From Treponema sp. (GTDB lineage: Bacteria > Spirochaetota > Spirochaetia > Treponematales > Breznakiellaceae): 64,000 nucleotides of DNA. Below, in pieces: positions 39,722 to 50,159 of the stretch. The first letter of the stretch is position 1; each line of letters opens with the position of its first letter. The notes beneath the pieces were generated by a model that worked only from the letters and a program-made list of their open reading frames with translations, had not been told where the DNA came from and searched no databases. The stretch lies in the NCBI GenBank assembly GCA_031257675.1, contig JAIROG010000034.1, positions 1 through 64,000 of the forward strand. Direction: 5' to 3'. The position numbers were made by a program, and so were the translations under genes.

Positions 39722-40756
39722 ATGAAAGGGATTCGTATGAATAAAAAAATAATGTTGCTGCCGCTTGTCTGTTGTTTTGCAAGCGAGATGTTCGCGGATG
39801 ATTGGAACACGGCGTTGTTGGATACGGCGCGGAATGTGGACTATATGTCCGTTGTTGAAAAAGACGTTGTTTTTGAACTGAACAAGGCGAGGAGCGATCC
39901 GCAACGGTACGCCGAGGAGTATATCAAACCGAGGCTCGCGTATTTTTCAGGGAAAATATATGCGGCGCCGGGAAAACCCAGAGCCGCCACCAATGAAGGG
40001 GTGAACGCAGTATATGCGTGCGTCGGCGCGATGGCGAAACAACAGCCCGCGCCGCCCCTCGCGCCGGAGCGGGGCATGAGCATCGGCGCTCAGGATCATG
40101 TGAGGGATTTGACTGTCAACGCCGCCGGACACATGAGCGGCGACAAAAACGATCCCGCCAAGCGCATAAGCCGCTACGGACAGTGGACAAATACATGGGG
40201 CGAGAACATCGCCTATGGCGCAGCAACCGGACGTGATATTGTCATTGAATTGTTGATTGACGACGGCTCGCCAAACCGGGTGCATTATAACAACAATATG
40301 AACAAGGCGTTTGGCAAGATCGGCGTCGCTGTTGGTCCGCACAAGAGGTACGGAACCGTGTGCGTCATTGATTTTGCGGGCGGCTATACCACCGATGCGA
40401 CCTACGCCGCGCCGCCCGCGCTTGTCGCGCCGGTTGAGACATGGACGGTCGTCCTTGCCAATAAAAGCGGGTACACGTGGACTAAATTGTACATAGCCGG
40501 CAAGAGAGACTCAACATGGGGAAACGACGTGTTAGCGGGCGCGAAAATAAGACCTGACGGCAGAGCGACAGTCTCACTCCCAAAAGACGCCGCGTTGTAC
40601 GACATAAAAATCGTTGCGGATATGGGAAGAATCTACTATATGTTCAACCTTGATCGCAACAGACACCAGTTGACGCCGTCCTCTTTTGGAATACAGCATA
40701 TCTTTTTTGTGGAGAAATTTTCTCTGGACACAAAGGATGCGTCCGGAAGAAAGTGA
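39722..40756 (+). CDS. Secreted CAP/SCP-domain protein
   Basis: MKGIRMNKKIMLLPLVCCFA is a signal peptide cleaved after about MFA. Residues 40-230 form a CAP (SCP/PR-1) domain: VFELNKARSDPQRYAEEYI, MSIGAQDHVRDLTVNAAGHM, the signature WTNTWGENIAYG and a later KIGVAVGPHKRYGTVCVIDF. The C-terminal 100 residues are a beta-rich domain of unknown type beginning WTVVLANKSGYTWTKLYIAG. Bacterial CAP proteins are extracytoplasmic with varied or unknown roles. Two starts are possible: 39722, which lies ten bases after a TATATT box, and 39737, which has AAAGGG upstream. Divergent from purM. Confidence 0.85.
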   Translation: MKGIRMNKKIMLLPLVCCFASEMFADDWNTALLDTARNVDYMSVVEKDVVFELNKARSDPQRYAEEYIKPRLAYFSGKIYAAPGKPRAATNEGVNAVYACVGAMAKQQPAPPLAPERGMSIGAQDHVRDLTVNAAGHMSGDKNDPAKRISRYGQWTNTWGENIAYGAATGRDIVIELLIDDGSPNRVHYNNNMNKAFGKIGVAVGPHKRYGTVCVIDFAGGYTTDATYAAPPALVAPVETWTVVLANKSGYTWTKLYIAGKRDSTWGNDVLAGAKIRPDGRATVSLPKDAALYDIKIVADMGRIYYMFNLDRNRHQLTPSSFGIQHIFFVEKFSLDTKDASGRK

Positions 40757-40844: not shown

Positions 40845-42176
40845 ATGAACACATTAACCTTTCCAAACGATTTCCTGTGGGGAACCGCAACAGCCAGTTA
40901 TCAAGTGGAAGGCGCCGCAGGCGAGGGCGGACGGAGTGAGAGCATCTGGGATACATTTTGCCGCGTACCGGGCGCGGTGTACGCCGGGGAAACCGGAAGC
41001 ATAGCCTGCGATCAATACCACCGTTATAAAGAAGACGTCGCCCTCATGGCAAAACTGGGCTTCAAAAGCTATCGTTTTTCCATTGCGTGGCCCCGTATTC
41101 TGCCGGGTGGCGTTGGAGAAACGAATGCGGAAGGGGTCGCCTATTATCGCAACCTCTGCGCCGAGCTTCACAAATACGGCATACAGGCGTGCGCCACATT
41201 GTACCACTGGGACCTGCCGCAAGTCCTTCAAGACAAGGGCGGCTGGGCAAAACGGTTTATTGTGGAGGCTTTTGTTGACTATGCGAAGGTTTGTTTTGCG
41301 GAATTGGGCGATTGCGTTGATCAGTGGATCACCATGAATGAGCCGCTCTGCGTTACATTTCTGGGGTATTTGGCGGGAGCGCATGCGCCCGGCGTCAAAG
41401 ACCCCGCCCAAGCGGCGGCGGCGGTTCATCATATACTGCTGGCGCACGGCGCGGCGGTCAAGGAGTACCGGAAAACAGGGCTTAAAGCGCCTATCGGCGT
41501 CACGCTGAACATCAATACGCCCCGTCCGGCGACTAAGAGCGAAGCGGACGTTGAGGCCGCCCGCAGGGCGCATGCGTTTGAAGCGGAAGTGTTTTTGTTC
41601 CCGCTTATTGGCAAAGGGTATCCTGAAATTGTCCTGCAAGCAGGCTGGGAATTTCCTGTCAAGCCAGGCGATTTAGAGGTGATGTCTGAAAAAATGGACT
41701 TTATCGGCTTGAACTATTACTTTGAGAATGCCGTCGCATGGAACGAAAGCGTCCCCGACAAGTATTCCACTGTCCCGTTCTGGCAGGAACGCTCGGACAT
41801 GGGCTGGCCCGTGGTTCCGTGGGGTCTGTACCGTCAGATCAAGTTGGTAAGCGAGGCGACGGGTGGAAATCTCCCCATTTATATTACGGAAAACGGCTAT
41901 GCGAACCCCGATTCGGTCGACGGCGACGGCAGGGTTCACGATGAAAAGCGCATAGAGTACCTCAAGAAGCATATAAGCGTTTGTTCAACGTTGATTAAAG
42001 AGGGGGTCAAGCTCAAAGGATATTTTGTCTGGTCGTTTCTTGACAATTTTGAATGGACGTGGGGATACTCAAAACGGTTCGGCATCGTCCATGTTGATTA
42101 TAAAACCCAAAAACGGACATTGAAAGACAGCGCCTACTTTTTTAGAGATGTCATGGCCGGTTTCGGAGAGTGGTAA
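40845..42176 (+). CDS. Beta-glucosidase, glycoside hydrolase family 1
   Basis: A 443-residue GH1 enzyme hydrolysing beta-linked glucosides such as cellobiose; no signal peptide, so cytoplasmic. The N-terminal FLWGTATASYQVEGAAGEGG is the family signature. The acid/base is E166 in TMNEPL and the nucleophile is E349 in YITENGYANPD. Sugar-contact residues in HWDLPQ and in FVWSFLDNFEWTWGYSKRFG are intact. TACTAT lies seven bases before the ATG (-35 TTGCCA, 18-base spacer), so the mRNA is probably leaderless. A PAP2-like gene starts one base after its stop. Confidence 0.96.
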   Translation: MNTLTFPNDFLWGTATASYQVEGAAGEGGRSESIWDTFCRVPGAVYAGETGSIACDQYHRYKEDVALMAKLGFKSYRFSIAWPRILPGGVGETNAEGVAYYRNLCAELHKYGIQACATLYHWDLPQVLQDKGGWAKRFIVEAFVDYAKVCFAELGDCVDQWITMNEPLCVTFLGYLAGAHAPGVKDPAQAAAAVHHILLAHGAAVKEYRKTGLKAPIGVTLNINTPRPATKSEADVEAARRAHAFEAEVFLFPLIGKGYPEIVLQAGWEFPVKPGDLEVMSEKMDFIGLNYYFENAVAWNESVPDKYSTVPFWQERSDMGWPVVPWGLYRQIKLVSEATGGNLPIYITENGYANPDSVDGDGRVHDEKRIEYLKKHISVCSTLIKEGVKLKGYFVWSFLDNFEWTWGYSKRFGIVHVDYKTQKRTLKDSAYFFRDVMAGFGEW

Positions 42177-42177
42177 A

Positions 42178-42657
42178 TTGTCAACCATAAACTCCGCGTC
42201 TGTAAAGGCGTTTTTTGAGAATTCGCTCTTTCTCGCGCCGATTACAAGCTGGTTCTTTGCGCAACTTATCAAGGCGGCGATCATGTTGTCCGGCAAGCGC
42301 AGAAAGACGGCGAAAGACGTGCTTGAAGCCCTTGCGTGGCGTACGGGCGGCATGCCTTCAAGCCATTCGGCGCTTGTCACCTCCATGGCGACCGCGGCGG
42401 TTTTCAAAGAAGGATTCGATTCAAACGTGTTTATCCTCTCGTTGTGGTTTGCCCTGATCGTCATACGGGACGCAATGGGAGTGCGGCGCGCTTCCGGGAT
42501 ACAGGCGCACGTCTTAAATCTTTTGGGAAAGAAGGTCTCCGAAAAAATGGGAATCGAATACCATCCGGTTAAAGAGATCCACGGACACACCCCGCGTCAG
42601 GTGATGGTCGGCGGGTTGCTGGGCATTTTCATTGCCATAGCGTATGTTTTTTTGTAG
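42178..42657 (+). CDS. DUF212/divergent PAP2-family membrane protein
   Basis: A 159-residue integral membrane protein. It has WFFAQLIKAAIMLSGKRRK, then WRTGGMPSSHSALVTSMATA and IVIRDAMGVRRASGIQAHVL. The end VKEIHGHTPRQVMVGGLLGI carries the second conserved His. These are the marks of the acid-phosphatase/vanadium-dependent haloperoxidase-related (DUF212) family; the substrate is unknown. I take the TTG at 42178 (STINSASVKAFFENSL) as the start, with GGAGAG upstream and one base after the GH1 stop; the longer frame from 42148 overlaps the GH1 gene. Confidence 0.88.
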   Translation: MSTINSASVKAFFENSLFLAPITSWFFAQLIKAAIMLSGKRRKTAKDVLEALAWRTGGMPSSHSALVTSMATAAVFKEGFDSNVFILSLWFALIVIRDAMGVRRASGIQAHVLNLLGKKVSEKMGIEYHPVKEIHGHTPRQVMVGGLLGIFIAIAYVFL

Positions 42658-42672
42658 GTTGTAGGATAGAAC

Positions 42673-44265
42673 ATGCCTTTGAAATCACGGATCATCCCCG
42701 CCGTCTTAATCGCGCTCTGTTCCTTGGGTTTTTCGGCTCTTCTTTTCAGGGAAGCGAGAAAAATCATGCCGCAGGAAGGAAACAATGGGTACGCGGCGCT
42801 GATGTTTGACGCATCGTACCCAGACAGGGAGATCGGAGAACGCATCGCGCAGACCAGCTTCGGCGGCGGCTGCATCTCGGAGTCAACGCAAACGGTTTTT
42901 TTGGATAACTTCGGCGAACTAGAGGCGATTCCCTTAGACGCATGGGAGGGGCGTTTAGAAAATTTTGATCCGAGGCATGATGGATACGCCGAAAAACTCA
43001 AGGCGTTTTTTATACGGGGCGACAAGCGGTTGTTTTTTGTCCCGCTTTCAGTTGAAGCGAACAAACTTGGCGCCGGGAACATACAAGCGGCCTTTGCGGA
43101 CGCGCTTGGCGACATTCCTTTTTCCGTTGAGTTTTTGGGCTATGACAGGCCCATCGCCTTTTACTTTCTGCTGTTCGCCGCCGCGTCGTTCATGGGGGCG
43201 CTGGCATCGGGACGCCCGCTGTCCACTCTTGCGCTTGCGCCGCTTTTCGCGGGTTTTGCGTTTGCCGGCTCCGCAGGACTGGCGCTCTCGGCGATTGCGT
43301 TAGCCATGACGAGCGTCATCACGAATCCGTTGCGGACGTTGTTCATGGCAAGGCGGTACGGAGACGCAAAGGAGACGGTTTGGGCGCGGTTGACCTATCT
43401 TTTTCATCCTGTTAAAAGCATAACGCTGAATATCAAGCCTACAGCGAACGGTTCTGCGCAAAGCCGCCGCTTGCGGGGTGTAAAACCGGTTGAAATTCTG
43501 CTTCCCGCAGTGTTGTTTCTTTTGCTTATGGGGCTGTATATATACACCGGCATACGCAACGGCGTGTCTTTTGTATTTGAAGGCGCTGTTTTTGGATGCA
43601 GTTGCATTGTTTTGACGCTCATCGTGTGGGCGGAATCGAACAGGGGCGGCTCGCAAGATCACATCAGGTTCACGCCGGTGCCTATCATCGGAAGCGTCGC
43701 AAAGGCGCCGCTGTTTACCCGCGCCGTCATTCCTTTTACCCTTGCGGCTTTTCTGGCTTTGGCATTGCCCGATACATTGGGGCTGACTCAATACCGCGAG
43801 CCTTCCGGTTATCTGAAAAACCACTTGATTCAGGCGAGCGATTACAAAGCGCATCTCGCCTTTCAAACGTCGTTTTCGTTTACCCCGCTTGGAGAAAATC
43901 GGGGAGTGGAAGCTGACGATGGGTATCTACAGTATCAGCTTGGGGATGACGGACTCATAGCGGGAGCAAAAGACGCCGCCAGCTACGTCGCCGCTGGCGG
44001 TCAAGAAAAAAAAGCTGGATATTTCGGCCAATTTCCACAATTTCCATTGGAAGACCTTATGGATTTTTTGAGCGAATCAGGTCATAATGAAAAAAATAGT
44101 ATTGTAGGGACCGGTATTGACACACGGGACATGCTTCCCATAGCCTTGCTCGTCGCGCCGTGTATTCTTGCGTTGTTTAATATCGGACAAAAAAGAGGCA
44201 GGAAAAAGAATATGCTAGTATATAGTGAGAAATGGAATTTGTTCCGTAAACGGATAGCGGCATGA
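42673..44265 (+). CDS. Large membrane protein of unknown function upstream of rnfC
   Basis: A 530-residue protein. An N-terminal membrane anchor (SRIIPAVLIALCSLGFSALL) is followed by an extracytoplasmic region to about 150. A cluster of membrane helices lies at about 160-220 (FYFLLFAAASFMGALASG, LALAPLFAGFAFAGSAGLAL), further helices at about 275-325 and 355-375, then a soluble stretch. A final helix (LPIALLVAPCILALFNIG) precedes a Lys/Arg-rich tail. I recognise no family. Its stop overlaps the ATG of rnfC by four bases, so it is translationally coupled to the Rnf-like operon and may be an extra subunit or assembly factor. Confidence 0.75.
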   Translation: MPLKSRIIPAVLIALCSLGFSALLFREARKIMPQEGNNGYAALMFDASYPDREIGERIAQTSFGGGCISESTQTVFLDNFGELEAIPLDAWEGRLENFDPRHDGYAEKLKAFFIRGDKRLFFVPLSVEANKLGAGNIQAAFADALGDIPFSVEFLGYDRPIAFYFLLFAAASFMGALASGRPLSTLALAPLFAGFAFAGSAGLALSAIALAMTSVITNPLRTLFMARRYGDAKETVWARLTYLFHPVKSITLNIKPTANGSAQSRRLRGVKPVEILLPAVLFLLLMGLYIYTGIRNGVSFVFEGAVFGCSCIVLTLIVWAESNRGGSQDHIRFTPVPIIGSVAKAPLFTRAVIPFTLAAFLALALPDTLGLTQYREPSGYLKNHLIQASDYKAHLAFQTSFSFTPLGENRGVEADDGYLQYQLGDDGLIAGAKDAASYVAAGGQEKKAGYFGQFPQFPLEDLMDFLSESGHNEKNSIVGTGIDTRDMLPIALLVAPCILALFNIGQKRGRKKNMLVYSEKWNLFRKRIAA

Positions 44266-45578
44266 GAAGAATGTATTCATTTCCTCGCGGAGGTTTTGTT
44301 TTTGAAGACCCCTATGCGCCGTGCAACGCATCAATAGAGACCGCGTTCTTGCCGGCATTCGCGGTGATACCCTTGATTCAGCATACGGGAAACAAGGCGT
44401 ACCCCGTTGTGTTCATTGGGGAATACGTCAAAGAAGGCATGTTGATAGGACGCGGGCAGGGACCGGGATCCGCAAACATTCACGCGACGGTGCCGGGAAA
44501 AGTTGTGCGTATGGCTTCATGGAAAACCATAGATGGCGTCGCCAACGACGCTCTTGTCATACGCATGGAGGGAAGTTTCGAGCGGCTGGGGAAGAGGGAA
44601 GTCGTATACCCGTGGAACGATCTCCCGCCGCTTGAATTGCAACGGCTCATAGCGGAATACGGCATCGTTGAATTGGATGCGGGAGGGAAGCCGATAGTCG
44701 ACATCTTGAACGCTCTCAACGTGAAGAAAGAAGTGATCACGCTGGTGATCCGGTGCGTGTTTGACGATCCGTGGTTTGTCGCAGACAGGACAATCTGCAA
44801 TGAGCGGATCAAGGAGGTCGTCGAAGGCGGCTTCATCATCGCAAAGGCGTGTGAAGCGAAACGCATCGTATACGCCGTTTCATATACGGAAAAGCAGCTT
44901 ATAGACAACATACAGAAAACAGTAAAAACCCTGCAAAATTTGCACTCGATCCAAACTCCCCTGTCGGTGGTCCTAGTGGGGAACAGATACCCGCAACACA
45001 ACCAACGGGAACTTGAGCTGGTGCTGAGGGAGTATGAAAAAAAAGAAACCGCCTTGTTGGGCCGCCTTTTTATGATAAGCCCTTCTACATTATCAGCGAT
45101 ACACGATGCGGTGAAACTCCACAAACCCATACTGGACAGATACATCGCCATAGGCGGTTCCGCAGTGAAGGCGCCCAAGGTGTTCAAAGCGCGGATAGGG
45201 ACGCGGTTGCGCGATCTTTTTGAGCAGTGCGGCGGACTCACAGCCCCTCCCGCACGGATAGTGATAGGGTCGCCTTTAGCCGGACGCGCCGCGCTTGATC
45301 TTGACGAACCGGTGACGAAAACAAGTTACGCGGCGTTGGCTCTTTTGGAAAAGGATGTCGGCGGCACGATTTCGAGAAGTTGCATTGACTGCGGAGAGTG
45401 CCGCGCGGTCTGCCCCACAGGGCTTGATCCTGAGCTGTTGTACAAACAGATCGTCAGCGGCGCCAAGCGTCCGCTTGCGTTAGAGTGCCACGGGTGCGGG
45501 TGTTGCGAAGCGGTTTGCCCCTCACGGTTGCCTGTCAGTACGACCATCTATACAGCCGTCAAGGAGGCGCGTATATGA
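44262..45578 (+). CDS. rnfC: RnfC-like subunit with two intact [4Fe-4S] motifs
   Basis: RnfC is the peripheral electron-input subunit of the Rnf complex. The C-terminal ferredoxin part is intact: C374, C377, C380, C384 in SCIDCGECRAVCP and C409, C412, C415, C419 in ECHGCGCCEAVCP. The N-terminal region (FPRGGFVFEDPYAPCNASIE and a later VPGKVVRM biotinyl-like fold) fits RnfC. However, where canonical RnfC has the Gly-rich G-x-x-G-x-G-G-A NADH/FMN loop, this protein reads GIVELDAGGKPIVDILN, so NADH binding is doubtful. The 438-residue length is normal. It overlaps both neighbours by four bases. Confidence 0.85.
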   Translation: MRRMYSFPRGGFVFEDPYAPCNASIETAFLPAFAVIPLIQHTGNKAYPVVFIGEYVKEGMLIGRGQGPGSANIHATVPGKVVRMASWKTIDGVANDALVIRMEGSFERLGKREVVYPWNDLPPLELQRLIAEYGIVELDAGGKPIVDILNALNVKKEVITLVIRCVFDDPWFVADRTICNERIKEVVEGGFIIAKACEAKRIVYAVSYTEKQLIDNIQKTVKTLQNLHSIQTPLSVVLVGNRYPQHNQRELELVLREYEKKETALLGRLFMISPSTLSAIHDAVKLHKPILDRYIAIGGSAVKAPKVFKARIGTRLRDLFEQCGGLTAPPARIVIGSPLAGRAALDLDEPVTKTSYAALALLEKDVGGTISRSCIDCGECRAVCPTGLDPELLYKQIVSGAKRPLALECHGCGCCEAVCPSRLPVSTTIYTAVKEARI

Positions 45579-46537
45579 GACCTCAGGTGAATCTTTCCCG
45601 TCCTACCGCGAGCAGGATGTGGCTGGTAAGCTTGGCCGCCCTTATGGCGATCATGCAGTCTTCCCTCACGGACGCTTTTCTGTCTCTTGTTATAGCGGTA
45701 ACGGCGGTGATTGCGGCGTTTTTCTGTGAGTTCATCATCTATTTCAGAACCGAAAAGTCCGCGATGATCAAGGATGGGAGCGCCATTACATCAGCTCTGG
45801 TTCTCACGCTGATGTTGCCGAACCACATCAGCCCCATATATGCGGCGATAGGCGTAGTTTTCGCCATGATCGTTGTGAAGTACAGTTTCGGCGGGCTTGG
45901 CTCCAACTGGCTGAACCCCGCGATAGGCGGCTGGCTTTTTGTTCGTTTTACATGGAACTCCATGTATGAACAGGCTTTGGCAAGCGCGGCGTCTGCGGGA
46001 AACGGGGCCTTTGACGGCGTTGTCAGCGATTTTCTGAACAAGACCGTGTTTTCGGCTTTAGGCGCGAAACTGCCCGATGGCTATATAACGCTTTTCAACG
46101 CAGCCGGCGCAAGCGTCATTGCGGACAGGGGGGTATTGGCGCTCCTTGTGGGGTCTATCCTCCTCCTGTCGTCTCGGGTGAGCCGCGTGTGGACGCCCGC
46201 CGTCTACCTTGGGGGATACGGGCTTCTGATACGGCTTTTCGGCGCATTGCCCGATGGCGGCGGTTTCGGCGACGGCGACATGTTAAGCGGATTTCTGACG
46301 GGCGGAACATTAGTAGCGGCGTTCTTTTTGGCGCCGGAACCGGTTACCGGACCAAAATCAACGCAAGGAGCGTTAATTGTCGCTCTTGTAATGGCAACGT
46401 TCACCTTTATTTTCAGATATTTAGGCGGGGAACTGTATGGCGCATTCTTTGCGGCGGCTCTGTTGAACGCGCTGGTTCCCATTGTCCGGAGCGTTGAGAG
46501 CCGGTTTCTATATGCAAGGCGGAGGATCGTACTGTGA
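45575..46537 (+). CDS. rnfD: RnfD-like membrane subunit, flavin motif not found
   Basis: A 320-residue polytopic membrane protein with the RnfD/NqrB pattern: an early FRTEKSAMIKDGSAITSALV segment, NPAIGGWLFVRFTW, and late SGFLTGGTLVAAFFLAPEPV which matches the canonical G-G-T-x-x-x-A-F-F-I-A-T-D-P-V. The loop that should hold the flavinylated S-G-A-T motif reads AFDGVVSDFLNKTVFSALGA and has no SGAT. ATG at 45575 overlaps the rnfC stop (ATGA). It is the expected second gene of an rnf operon. Confidence 0.82.
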   Translation: MRPQVNLSRPTASRMWLVSLAALMAIMQSSLTDAFLSLVIAVTAVIAAFFCEFIIYFRTEKSAMIKDGSAITSALVLTLMLPNHISPIYAAIGVVFAMIVVKYSFGGLGSNWLNPAIGGWLFVRFTWNSMYEQALASAASAGNGAFDGVVSDFLNKTVFSALGAKLPDGYITLFNAAGASVIADRGVLALLVGSILLLSSRVSRVWTPAVYLGGYGLLIRLFGALPDGGGFGDGDMLSGFLTGGTLVAAFFLAPEPVTGPKSTQGALIVALVMATFTFIFRYLGGELYGAFFAAALLNALVPIVRSVESRFLYARRRIVL

Positions 46538-46953
46538 AAAATACCGGCATCGCGCTTGCTTGGATAGCCGGGATACTCCTTTTCGGCTGGCTTTTGTTTT
46601 TTTTAACCCGCTCTCTCCAAGTCAATGTGTTTATACAGGCGGTGAATAAAACGCTCGCGCAGGCGGAAGATGCGAGGCATGTGGAAAAAGAGATCCTCGG
46701 CAAAACATCGTTGGGAAATTGGCGCCGGTTTGTAGGCGCAACTGGTGAAGTGGAAGGCAATGCCCTCCTTTTCTCTATGTTTGACAATGGCATCTTGATT
46801 CTATGCATAGCGTTTGTCCCGGCTACAGGCGAGAACGCCGGCAAAGTTGAGATTCTTCCGCTGAACAATCATGCACGGGCGGTCTTTCCGTATATTCACC
46901 AGGGGGAGATTGACATTTATCGCAGGCGTATCGAAAAGGAGCTACTGCCATGA
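46534..46953 (+). CDS. Short RnfG-position protein lacking the FMN-attachment motif
   Basis: It starts at GTG 46534 within the rnfD stop. The 139-residue protein has an N-terminal membrane helix (GIALAWIAGILLFGWLLFFL) and a periplasmic domain. Position between rnfD and rnfE and single-anchor topology match RnfG/NqrC, but it is about 60 residues shorter than usual and lacks the S-G-A-T-x-(S/T) flavinylation motif; the nearest string is FVGATGEVEG. It may be a diverged RnfG or an unrelated replacement. Overlaps the next gene by four bases. Confidence 0.65.
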   Translation: MKNTGIALAWIAGILLFGWLLFFLTRSLQVNVFIQAVNKTLAQAEDARHVEKEILGKTSLGNWRRFVGATGEVEGNALLFSMFDNGILILCIAFVPATGENAGKVEILPLNNHARAVFPYIHQGEIDIYRRRIEKELLP

Positions 46954-47576
46954 CAAAGAATGCGTTTCAGATTTTCTTTAATGCGCGCAACCCCCTTTTT
47001 ACGCTGACATGCATAGGACTGACGCTTTTCTCTTCAAGCCGGTTGTCGTTTGCCATTGTGGTTGCCGTAGCCATTGCGTGGGTGTATGTCTTGACCGCGC
47101 TGGCCGTTCTTGTGGCAAAACCGATATTGCCGGGTAAAGGGCGGAGCATCGTCGTGGTGTTTCTGTCCAGTCTCGTCGCGGTTTTGTTCCTTTTTATTCT
47201 CTGGTTTATAAGTCCTCTGTTGACAATAGAGCTTTTATACGTTACATTGCTGGTTCCGGTCTCTTTTATTGGAGCGTTTCCTCTGGAGAAACTGGATTCG
47301 CTTAACGCATCCGAAACGGTGGTCGAGGCGTTTAGCCATGCATGCGTAACAGGAGGCATTATTATCGCGCTTTCCCTTGTCAGGGAGCCATTAGGTTTTA
47401 TGACGCTTTCATTTCCGGGCGGCGTAGAGGGTTTTATCGAATTGTTTAATGTTTCCAGCGCCACCGGCTTCTTTCCGCTGCGGATATTAGCGGTGGCTTC
47501 CGGCGCGCTTCTCCTGTTAGGATACATAACGGCGTTGTTTTACACGATTATAAAACGCTTAAGGAGGACGGTATAA
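46950..47576 (+). CDS. rnfE: RnfE-like membrane subunit
   Basis: A 208-residue, six-helix membrane protein. The start FFNARNPLFTLTCIGLTLFS aligns with RnfE/NqrD (N-P-x-x-x-x-x-L-G-L-C-P). SHACVTGGIIIALSLVREPL matches the later G-x-x-x-x-x-x-x-G-x-(I/L)-R-E segment. The second membrane cysteine (canonical T-N-C) is replaced by LLVPVSFIGAFPLEKL, so the [2Fe-2S] cluster shared with RnfA looks unlikely. ATG at 46950 overlaps the previous stop; its TAA overlaps the next ATG by one base. Confidence 0.78.
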   Translation: MTKNAFQIFFNARNPLFTLTCIGLTLFSSSRLSFAIVVAVAIAWVYVLTALAVLVAKPILPGKGRSIVVVFLSSLVAVLFLFILWFISPLLTIELLYVTLLVPVSFIGAFPLEKLDSLNASETVVEAFSHACVTGGIIIALSLVREPLGFMTLSFPGGVEGFIELFNVSSATGFFPLRILAVASGALLLLGYITALFYTIIKRLRRTV

Positions 47577-48160
47577 TGGCGGCTTTAGTATCGGCGGCTC
47601 TTTTCGCAAGTCTTTCTCTCAATCTGATAATCCAATTTGGATTGGGAATTGAGGAGATGCCGGAAGACGGCGTTGTACGCCCATTGCCTTTTTTTCAGGC
47701 GGGGGTGTTGTTTATAACGGTTTTTGCGCTCTGGGTTTTGTTCTTTTATGTTGTCACGCCGTTCTTCTCTATTCTCTTTAAATATTTTCTTTTGTTTCCT
47801 TTCTCCATGCTTTCCTGTTGGGCGCTTGAGGCCGCCGCAAGCCGTTTTATCCCGAAGATCGTTCCTCAAAAGAAGTTGTTCGGCGTGGCGACCGCTTACA
47901 ATGGACTCGCTTTTACGGCGTTATTGCTTACATTGCACATAGCATCAACCGTATTAGAAGCGCTTGTTGTTTCATTGAATTTTTCTTTGGGGCTTCTTTT
48001 TTCGATACTCATACTGGACGAGATCCAAAAACGATCTTCTTTTGAAGCTATACCCGTATTTTTACGTGGAAAGCCTTTGCGCCTTATATCCATGGGATTT
48101 TTATCGATTATCTTTAGTTCAACCGCAGCGATTCTGTTAATCGCTTTAAGCGCAACCTGA
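47576..48160 (+). CDS. rnfA: RnfA-like membrane subunit lacking both conserved cysteines
   Basis: A 194-residue membrane protein in the RnfA position. The end FLRGKPLRLISMGFLSIIFS aligns with the canonical P-F-R-G-x-x-x-x-L-I-x-x-G-L-M-S-L-x-F. The two half-helix motifs that bind the intramembrane [2Fe-2S] cluster, L-G-x-C-P and T-N-C-A, correspond here to QFGLGIEEMPEDG and FGVATAYNGLAFT, both without Cys. The gene closes the Rnf-like operon, 31 bases before the GH57-like gene. Confidence 0.75.
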   Translation: MAALVSAALFASLSLNLIIQFGLGIEEMPEDGVVRPLPFFQAGVLFITVFALWVLFFYVVTPFFSILFKYFLLFPFSMLSCWALEAAASRFIPKIVPQKKLFGVATAYNGLAFTALLLTLHIASTVLEALVVSLNFSLGLLFSILILDEIQKRSSFEAIPVFLRGKPLRLISMGFLSIIFSSTAAILLIALSAT

Positions 48161-48191: not shown

Positions 48192-50159
48192 ATGAAAAAA
48201 ATGAAAAAACGGGTCAACTTCATCCTGGGTTCGCACAATCACCTTCCCTTTGGAACAACCGATGATGAATTTGAGAAAAACTACCGGGTAAAACTCAAAC
48301 CGTTTATTTCAACATTAAATAAGCATCCTCAAATTCCGGCTGTTTTGCATTATTCGGGAGTTCTTCTCTACTGGCTGGAACGGGCGCATCCTGAATTTCT
48401 CATGCTTCTAGCGGACATGATCTCCAGAAAACAGATTGAGTTGTTAGGAGGCGGTTTTTACGAGCCTATGTTCCCCTTGATTCCGCCATCCGACAAAATC
48501 GGGCAGATCGAGTTGCTGACAACCTATCTCCGCAAACAGTTCGGCAAGCGTCCCTTGGGTTGTAGATTGCCGGCGCTTGCGTGGGAGCAAAACCTCGTCA
48601 GCGTCTTGAACAACTGCGGCATGCTCTATACATTCCTCAACGGGGAGCAGTTTTCTCTGGCGGGGCTGCCTGACAACGCGCCGTGCATCACCGAAGATCA
48701 GGGGAAGATACTCGCCGTATTTCCCATATCAATGAGACTCAACGCGCTGTTTGCCCAGCAACGAGCCTCGCTTGTCATGGAAAACCTCCTTGCGCAAACG
48801 AATATGGATGAAATATCCATACTCTGTGTGTTTCCCGAACAGATTTTTATGGAGAGCGACGAGCAGGCGCCGGATATTACGTATCAGATATTTTTTGAAG
48901 ATATTTCCCGTTTTGAAAAGAGCGTTAACTTCACCGTTCCGTTCAAAATCTACAATACCCTGACTGGTCTCAAAAAGGTGTATTTTCCTCCATGCTTAAG
49001 TTTGCCTTCGCAGCCGGAATACACGCGGCGCAGGCGGTCGAATCGGCAATTCGACTTGCCGCGGCAGTCCCTGATTGACTATCCTGAGGCTAATTATCTA
49101 TATTCAAAGATGATGTTCACCCATGTCCTTATCAACCAGCTTCACGGGGATAAATCACGAAAACGCACCGCGAGAGAAGAGCTTTGGAAGGCGCAAGGGT
49201 ATGACGCATTCTGCCCGACCTCAGGCGGCGGCATTTACCGGCATTCGGTGCGCAAGGCGGCTTACCGTGTCTTGCTCGAAGCGGAGAAAATAAGCAGGGA
49301 AAAAGGGATATTCGTCCCTTCTCTCATGGCGTTTGACTTTGACTTGGATGGGAAGGAAGAATATCTTTTTCAGGAAGAAAACATTAATTGCTATATTAAA
49401 ACATTAGGCGCGGATGTTTTTGAATTGGATTACTTGCCAAAGTCTTGGAATTATTTGGATACTTTTTCCCTCTCCGCCGGGACAAACCCCTGCAAGCGGG
49501 CTTCGTGGACGGACATTCTCGCCCCCCGCGAAATTTTTGAAGCGACCTTCGCCGACCGTATCGGCGAGATAAAGATGCAGACCGCGCAAACGGGCTTTTT
49601 AGAGGGCGGACCTGGCGAGAACGCTTTTCGATTCTGCAAAAATGAAATTTTTGAAGTGTTGGAAATGGACAAGACGCACGGAAAGCTCAGTTTCAGGCTT
49701 CCGTCCAATGCCGCCGTTCCTTACGGAAACATAGAAATAGAAAAAACGTATCAGCTAAAAAAAAGCATTCTTTCTATTCATTATACGCTTGTCAATAGGG
49801 GGGAGAACAGTGAAACATTTACGTTTATCCCCAGCATTGACCTTTCTTTCCCCGGCGAAGGGGACGCTTTCCTGCGGATTTATAAACTCAACACCGATGT
49901 AAAAGAAACCATTAGTATTGGAGAAGTGGTTGAACATGTTCAAGGCATCAAATTTCAGGATATAAAGAATGAAGTGATCATCATCATCGCTTCAGACAAA
50001 CTTTTTGACGCTTATATATTGCCGGTAAGAACGCCATGCGCTATCGAAGGTGAAACGATTGATATGTATCAATCGACTAACATTATGCCTATCAAACAAG
50101 TCTCGTTAGGACCGGACGAACGGTTTGAAACCGAGTTCAGCATGAGAATGTATCATTGA
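48192..50159 (+). CDS. GH57-like alpha-glucanotransferase homologue, probably catalytically altered
   Basis: A 655-residue protein related to GH57 4-alpha-glucanotransferases/alpha-amylases: FILGSHNHLPFG replaces the usual H-N-H-Q-P, IELLGGGFYEPMFPLIP is canonical, and the C-terminal half is a beta-rich DUF1926-like domain. The region that should carry the nucleophile (x-T-E-R-V-W) reads CRLPALAWEQNL, with Ala at the Glu position. The acid/base region (canonical D-D-G-E-K-F-G) reads CVFPEQIFMESDEQ. Both catalytic residues therefore seem absent. It may be a pseudoenzyme, a carbohydrate-binding regulator, or use other residues. A GGAG site precedes the ATG; the next gene is a GT4 glycosyltransferase 12 bases away. 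Confidence 0.8.
   Translation: MKKMKKRVNFILGSHNHLPFGTTDDEFEKNYRVKLKPFISTLNKHPQIPAVLHYSGVLLYWLERAHPEFLMLLADMISRKQIELLGGGFYEPMFPLIPPSDKIGQIELLTTYLRKQFGKRPLGCRLPALAWEQNLVSVLNNCGMLYTFLNGEQFSLAGLPDNAPCITEDQGKILAVFPISMRLNALFAQQRASLVMENLLAQTNMDEISILCVFPEQIFMESDEQAPDITYQIFFEDISRFEKSVNFTVPFKIYNTLTGLKKVYFPPCLSLPSQPEYTRRRRSNRQFDLPRQSLIDYPEANYLYSKMMFTHVLINQLHGDKSRKRTAREELWKAQGYDAFCPTSGGGIYRHSVRKAAYRVLLEAEKISREKGIFVPSLMAFDFDLDGKEEYLFQEENINCYIKTLGADVFELDYLPKSWNYLDTFSLSAGTNPCKRASWTDILAPREIFEATFADRIGEIKMQTAQTGFLEGGPGENAFRFCKNEIFEVLEMDKTHGKLSFRLPSNAAVPYGNIEIEKTYQLKKSILSIHYTLVNRGENSETFTFIPSIDLSFPGEGDAFLRIYKLNTDVKETISIGEVVEHVQGIKFQDIKNEVIIIIASDKLFDAYILPVRTPCAIEGETIDMYQSTNIMPIKQVSLGPDERFETEFSMRMYH

Follow-up and report, generated by a model that had tools for sequence, protein, structure and literature searches.

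What can an Rnf-type operon do when most of the residues that hold the cofactors of Rnf are missing from it? The question is raised by a locus in a 64,000-nucleotide stretch of DNA from Treponema sp. (Breznakiellaceae; assembly GCA_031257675.1, contig JAIROG010000034.1, positions 1 to 64,000), here called the window. Positions 42673-48160 hold a six-gene unit on the + strand, in the order X-C-D-G-E-A; neighbouring genes overlap by 4, 4, 4, 4 and 1 bases, and their ribosome sites are plausible (Table 1). We are highly confident that it is an Rnf descendant that has lost its cofactor sites step by step, and the operon is conserved and selectively maintained, not decaying. An earlier reading of the letters alone, the original prediction, had described intact genes in canonical order with overlaps of one to four bases; this holds, but the start of the unit was misplaced, as gene X, which overlaps C by four bases, was missed. 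The assembly is a metagenome-assembled genome (MAG) of 2.37 Mb, 83% complete, and the comparisons likewise draw on MAG assemblies.

The subunits can be connected to Rnf individually. C matches solved RnfC at 5.5e-49 and D matches solved RnfD (9eri_D) at 1.1e-18 in phmmer searches, and sequence profiles relate E to RnfE (1.1e-5) and A to NqrE/RnfA (3.5e-11). The PF01512 domain is still recognisable in C. Structure prediction, named as a check in the original prediction, agrees with this: the AlphaFold2 model of C (predicted local distance difference test score, pLDDT, 88) matches Acetobacterium woodii RnfC (9eri_C) in Foldseek with a template modelling (TM) score of 0.86, compared with 0.65 for the NqrA fold. 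The start of D is most likely the ATG at 45575 rather than the GTG at 45485. The NCBIfam cut-offs are missed by C (224 bits vs 246 for rnfC), D (112 vs 207 for rnfD) and A (19 vs 229 for rnfA).

Next, we compared variant, outgroup and canonical rows residue by residue, taking as reference the Rnf ligands described in the literature, namely the [2Fe-2S] cysteines of A and E and the threonines of D and G that carry flavin mononucleotide (FMN) (PMC9588780, PMC11889175). In C, the canonical Gly-rich loop GMGGAxFP, which belongs to the site for reduced nicotinamide adenine dinucleotide (NADH) and FMN, reads ELDAGGKP, and NGAECEPY reads RCVFDDPW. The latter is strongly conserved within the former NADH/FMN pocket (75-79 of 80 sequences per position), which points to a new use and not to drift. 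Since the site has been rebuilt in this way, NAD(H) is probably not used by the variant complex. All eight cysteines of the two [4Fe-4S] motifs of C are present in 80 of 80 sequences, in line with what had been read from the window.

The membrane subunits have lost more. The flavinylation threonine of D is absent and the region around it is hypervariable (81 sequences), and the protein in the RnfG position has neither an SGAT motif nor an FMN_bind match. Neither cluster cysteine is present in A. All these losses had been predicted; for E the prediction fell short, as both cluster cysteines are absent and not just one, Cys21 standing two residues off the ligand column and occurring in only 12 of 79 orthologues. 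Directly past the kink at the former cluster cysteine, E has a near-invariant new arginine, Arg31 (74/79). When the sequences were aligned with canonical and outgroup rows, none of the lost ligands turned up displaced along the sequence. Further, the operon has no rnfB, as had been noted, and none adjoins any of the 80 related loci; the single match, in L121, lies about 5 kb off on the opposite strand.

However, the flavin stripping is not complete. The ligands of riboflavin in A. woodii RnfD are N123 and D249 (PMC11889175), and both are kept in D, as N114 (N in 80/80) and E255 (D or E in 81/81). The original prediction was thus right about the FMN sites but missed the riboflavin ligands. Cysteines 165, 179 and 323 of C were also considered as a new metal site; C165 and C179 are new relative to canonical RnfC, but C323 is found there too, and the candidate was set aside. 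Judged by its aligned residues, the Breznakiellaceae form keeps two kinds of redox site only: C has its [4Fe-4S] pair and D its riboflavin pocket, and both lie on the side of the cytoplasm.

The consequences can be read from the path of the electrons. In Rnf they travel through B, A/E, G, the FMN of D, riboflavin and C to NAD+. Without RnfB, without [2Fe-2S] clusters in A and E and without FMN on G and D, there is no route by which electrons could cross the membrane and come back, and with this path broken there can be no redox-driven Na+ pump of the known kind. From the structures of Rnf and Nqr it follows that a complex with these predicted sites would not pump by the known mechanism. Because RnfB, the [2Fe-2S] clusters, the covalent FMN, the NADH site and the NCBIfam cut-offs are all wanting, the variant is an Rnf-derived complex and ought not to be classified among functional Rnfs.

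Genome G046 carries the same type of complex. It consists of a single contig of 1,139,633 bases, is 99% complete, and has its variant locus in L206 (G046:C1:166000-184000), with D at 173,916-174,446. This coincides with the reported position of tp0151, 174,174 (PMC7162541), a gene named rnfD (PMC11371664); by this match and by its size, G046 very probably represents Treponema pallidum. The position and the order of the genes suggest that the locus is orthologous to tp0148-tp0152. It reads C-D-G-E-A followed by a GH57 gene, with a DUF212 gene directly upstream and X missing. As in the window, A, E and D are without ligands and C keeps both [4Fe-4S] motifs. In this 99% complete genome there is no match to PF02508 (canonical RnfA/E) or to PF04060 (the N-terminal iron-sulfur, Fe-S, domain of RnfB), and the only Rnf relative found is the cofactor-poor form. 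Together with the ligand alignments, this genome supports the earlier claim that the operon encodes a distinct, maintained complex and not a standard ferredoxin:NAD pump.

It could be that the variant subunits join canonical RnfB and RnfG, or other flavinylated proteins, and so complete the electron path. The genome of the window does contain a complete canonical rnf operon, C-D-G-E-A-B with all ligands (contig C36), as well as ApbE (contig C25) and another FMN_bind protein, so both genes that the original prediction had proposed to look for exist; its RnfB is found solely in that separate operon. Yet the FMN threonine of D and the cluster ligands of A and E cannot be supplied in trans, and such borrowing is no general explanation, as the T. 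pallidum-like genome has neither canonical RnfA/E nor the PF04060 domain of RnfB. We regard a hybrid of this kind as quite improbable. Judged by sequence relationships, the canonical copy that these genomes also carry belongs to a lineage of its own, separate from the variant. In the relative Breznakiella homolactica (G250, L213/L222), whose strain RmG30 has the variant operon too, there are 14 FMN_bind matches, many of them in long open frames with some 600 residues, which suggests that this species may have many flavinylated extracytosolic enzymes.

To place the losses in time we use five variant groups: f1 is Breznakiellaceae, f3 is, by inference from T. pallidum, Treponemataceae, and f2, f4 and f5 are the others. 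In the tree of C the split between variant and canonical proteins has a support of 100/100, and the clade of f1 and f3 one of 100/99. In the concatenated C+D tree the variants nest inside the Rnfs of other spirochaete orders, as sister to G615 and G621, which carry complete C-D-G-E-A-B. The complex is therefore distinct, as proposed, but not unrelated to Rnf: it descends, by stepwise reduction, from an Rnf of the ordinary spirochaetal kind.

The extent of the loss differs between the groups. In f2, f4 and f5 the loop of C is lost or altered, while most FMN sites of D and cysteines of A/E are kept. B is retained downstream of A in these groups, with the exception of G043, and in some of f3, so that the view gained from f1, that no complex of this kind has rnfB, is wrong. 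In f3 the FMN site of D is gone and so are the cysteines of E, except the first one in G038 and G041; B is absent or shortened to about 200-250 residues, with its ferredoxin-type cysteines kept. Six f3 loci (L201, L205, L207, L208, L210 and L215) combine such a short RnfB, apparently without the N-terminal Fe-S part, with loss of the A/E ligands. In f1, finally, B, the FMN threonines and the A/E cysteines have all gone. The order of loss would then have been the NADH site of C, followed by the FMN sites and [2Fe-2S] cysteines, and then RnfB.

Outside the order, G576 has a ligand-poor C-D...A locus (L232, G576:C1:871000-885000) with a DUF212-like gene and a 563-residue open reading frame (ORF) upstream; shared ancestry and convergence would both fit its placement (support 61/84). 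A phylum-wide profile of D fails to part variant from canonical Rnf at moderate scores, and only loci that were read individually are used here.

A graded loss along the tree is also what would be expected if the complex were functionless and slowly decaying. However, the frames and the gene order are intact throughout the family, the ratio of nonsynonymous to synonymous substitution rates (dN/dS) is 0.11-0.36 for all six genes against four congeners, and the complex is kept in a reduced genome of 1.14 Mb. All six genes stand in the same order on one strand in 69 of the 80 related loci, the remaining 11 being without one or more of them, and a strong match to subunit A occurs in 32 of the 37 Breznakiellaceae genomes of the first sample. 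Decay is therefore rejected, and we give it hardly any credence. The sample codes of the Breznakiellaceae MAGs read like those of termite and cockroach guts.

What the maintained complex does is less certain. A low-potential cytosolic carrier might exchange electrons with the clusters of C, which would come into equilibrium with the riboflavin of D; the charge that riboflavin or the clusters carry when reduced could then switch the D-A-E membrane module between states. The outcome would be a redox-responsive valve, transporter or signalling complex, in which X and G may be accessory membrane or extracytoplasmic parts. Such redox gating of the putative complex is rather doubtful as a specific mechanism; the overall explanation, a maintained and stepwise-reduced Rnf descendant ("Rnf2") with a redox-responsive membrane function, is the one we tentatively prefer, with somewhat less than even confidence.

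Several observations weigh against this explanation. The riboflavin site is degraded in most f3 rows other than that of T. pallidum, so a riboflavin-gated function is not universal and only the [4Fe-4S] sites of C are. X, proposed as a subunit, is absent from the T. pallidum-like locus. Cofactors could also be held by unrelated residues or come from unlinked proteins.

The loss of riboflavin ligands in several f3 members would fit better if no redox chemistry were left in the membrane, and the D and A/E folds moved an ion or a solute while the clusters of C were structural relics or stabilisers. The fold of D is related to ammonium and urea transporters, and A/E have an alternating-access shape. 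Apart from riboflavin the membrane cofactor sites are lost, many polar residues are invariant, and Arg31 of E takes its place beside the kink of the former cluster cysteine. However, the eight cluster cysteines of C are invariant and are kept in the other tabulated variant rows, which speaks for a role in redox or sensing, and we consider a non-redox transporter or channel unlikely, although less so than the other alternatives.

As all kept cofactors are on the cytoplasmic side, the complex might instead be a one-sided relay, where C and a riboflavin-binding D form a membrane dock at which electrons pass from one cytosolic carrier to another, in outline like the soluble RnfC-like PrdC. In favour of this stand the match of C to the PrdC family model (9e-25) and the ferredoxin-type cysteines retained in the shortened RnfB of f3 members. 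This would leave the purifying selection on the membrane subunits A, E and G unexplained, and we find it fairly improbable.

Returning to the redox-responsive descendant of Rnf, two of its presumed parts lack relatives in the databases. X has the same position in 69 of 80 related loci, no Pfam match and no database family. Its AlphaFold2 model (pLDDT 80.7) has no significant fold match in the PDB (best E 0.06, probability 0.13) and no viral fold match, and its sequence profile finds weak PDB matches alone (E 0.25 and above). The profile does match proteins in other members of the order outside Breznakiellaceae. X represents a new family of conserved membrane proteins that goes with these operons, and from synteny we infer that it is a subunit of the complex. 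In another spirochaete order, an X-like ORF with a weak profile match (2.5e-5) immediately precedes a complete Rnf (G615, L228:3902-5443). The G-position protein likewise has no database family and its profile yields PDB matches at chance level only; its suggested homology to RnfG relies on position and on an intermediate in G037 (L191), a positional homologue still with FMN_bind and GAT.

The neighbours of the operon are included in Table 1. Breznakiellaceae and the T. pallidum-like genome have the conserved arrangement of DUF212 upstream and GH57 downstream in common; farther upstream, G037 has a glycogen-synthase-like ORF. Elsewhere in the window, 39722-40756 encodes a protein unrelated to the operon, with a CAP domain (PF00188) and a likely signal peptide.

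Table 1. Genes and sites of the variant operon, with its neighbours, in window coordinates.
Feature	Coordinates	Strand	Description
Gene X	42673..44265	+	530-aa membrane protein, ~7 hydrophobic segments plus soluble domains; first gene of unit
C, RnfC-like	44262..45578	+	438 aa; NADH/FMN loop swapped for a different conserved sequence; both [4Fe-4S] motifs kept
C, first [4Fe-4S] motif	45381..45413	+	C374-x2-C377-x2-C380-x3-C384; four Cys 80/80
C, second [4Fe-4S] motif	45486..45518	+	C409-x2-C412-x2-C415-x3-C419; four Cys 80/80
D, RnfD-like	45575..46537	+	320 aa; covalent-FMN Thr lost, riboflavin ligands kept; PF03116 9e-52
D, N114	45914..45916	+	aligns with riboflavin ligand Asn123 of A. woodii RnfD; N 80/80
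D, E255	46337..46339	+	aligns with riboflavin ligand Asp249 of A. woodii RnfD; D 54, E 27 of 81
RnfG-position subunit	46534..46953	+	139 aa; N-terminal membrane segment; no flavinylation motif or FMN_bind domain
E, RnfE-like	46950..47576	+	208 aa; both [2Fe-2S] Cys lost; R145-E146-x2-G149 motif kept
A, RnfA-like	47576..48160	+	194 aa; both [2Fe-2S] Cys lost
DUF212/PAP2-like upstream neighbour	42148..42657	+	PF02681 1.4e-41; at many related loci; synteny only, not claimed as subunit
GH57 family downstream neighbour	48192..50159	+	synteny only; occupies rnfB position of relatives that keep rnfB

Compared with the solved Rnf complexes (A. woodii 9eri, C. tetanomorphum 7zc6, A. vinelandii 8ahx), the variant has homologous C, D, E and A and the CDGEA order in common, and by its residues it would also share the two [4Fe-4S] clusters of C and the riboflavin site of D. 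In contrast, RnfB is missing, A/E have no [2Fe-2S] cysteines, D and G no covalent FMN sites and C no canonical NADH/FMN loop, and X is an addition. Na+-NQR has been proposed to be an Rnf descendant that lost rnfB (PMC4014512), a loss found in the variant as well; its NqrA is a relative of RnfC that has no redox cofactors. However, Na+-NQR still has FMN on NqrB/C and [2Fe-2S] in NqrD/E, with NqrF as a new part, whereas the variant lost those membrane sites and kept the clusters of C; no NqrF-type gene (FAD, [2Fe-2S]) is present in the six-gene unit or its immediate neighbours. In two-subunit Nqr/Rnf-like complexes the RnfD-like subunit is also without the covalent-FMN threonine and has an apparent non-covalent flavin site (PMC11334425), as in the variant. 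Those complexes have a flavinylated RnfG-like subunit and a PF00175 NAD-binding domain fused to the RnfD-like one; the variant has neither, but has C, E and A.

Rnf is a model flavin/Fe-S ion pump, and the graded series from complete Rnf to two kinds of cofactor points to the components that can be dispensed with while there is still a need for the membrane module, with purifying selection demonstrated at the reduced end. It is conceivable, though we would not yet call it probable, that an ordered loss of wiring converted a redox pump into another membrane complex, for redox-gated or non-redox transport or signalling, conserved across the sampled families of Treponematales, and that what has been presumed to be an energy-conserving Rnf in the syphilis spirochaete is the product of this conversion and no pump.

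In several papers T. pallidum is assigned an ion-pumping, flavodoxin-oxidising RNF (PMC7512555, PMC10194888, PMC11371664). The proposed complex, with tp0151 as rnfD, probably corresponds to the orthologue of the operon in the window; it is described as an ion-gradient-forming flavin/flavodoxin complex, yet the ligands are missing as they are in the window. No paper noting this loss was found in a literature search confined mostly to freely available papers. The result touches the open question of how T. pallidum makes enough adenosine triphosphate, as the sole Rnf-type locus found in its very probable genome is without the ligands that a pump needs.

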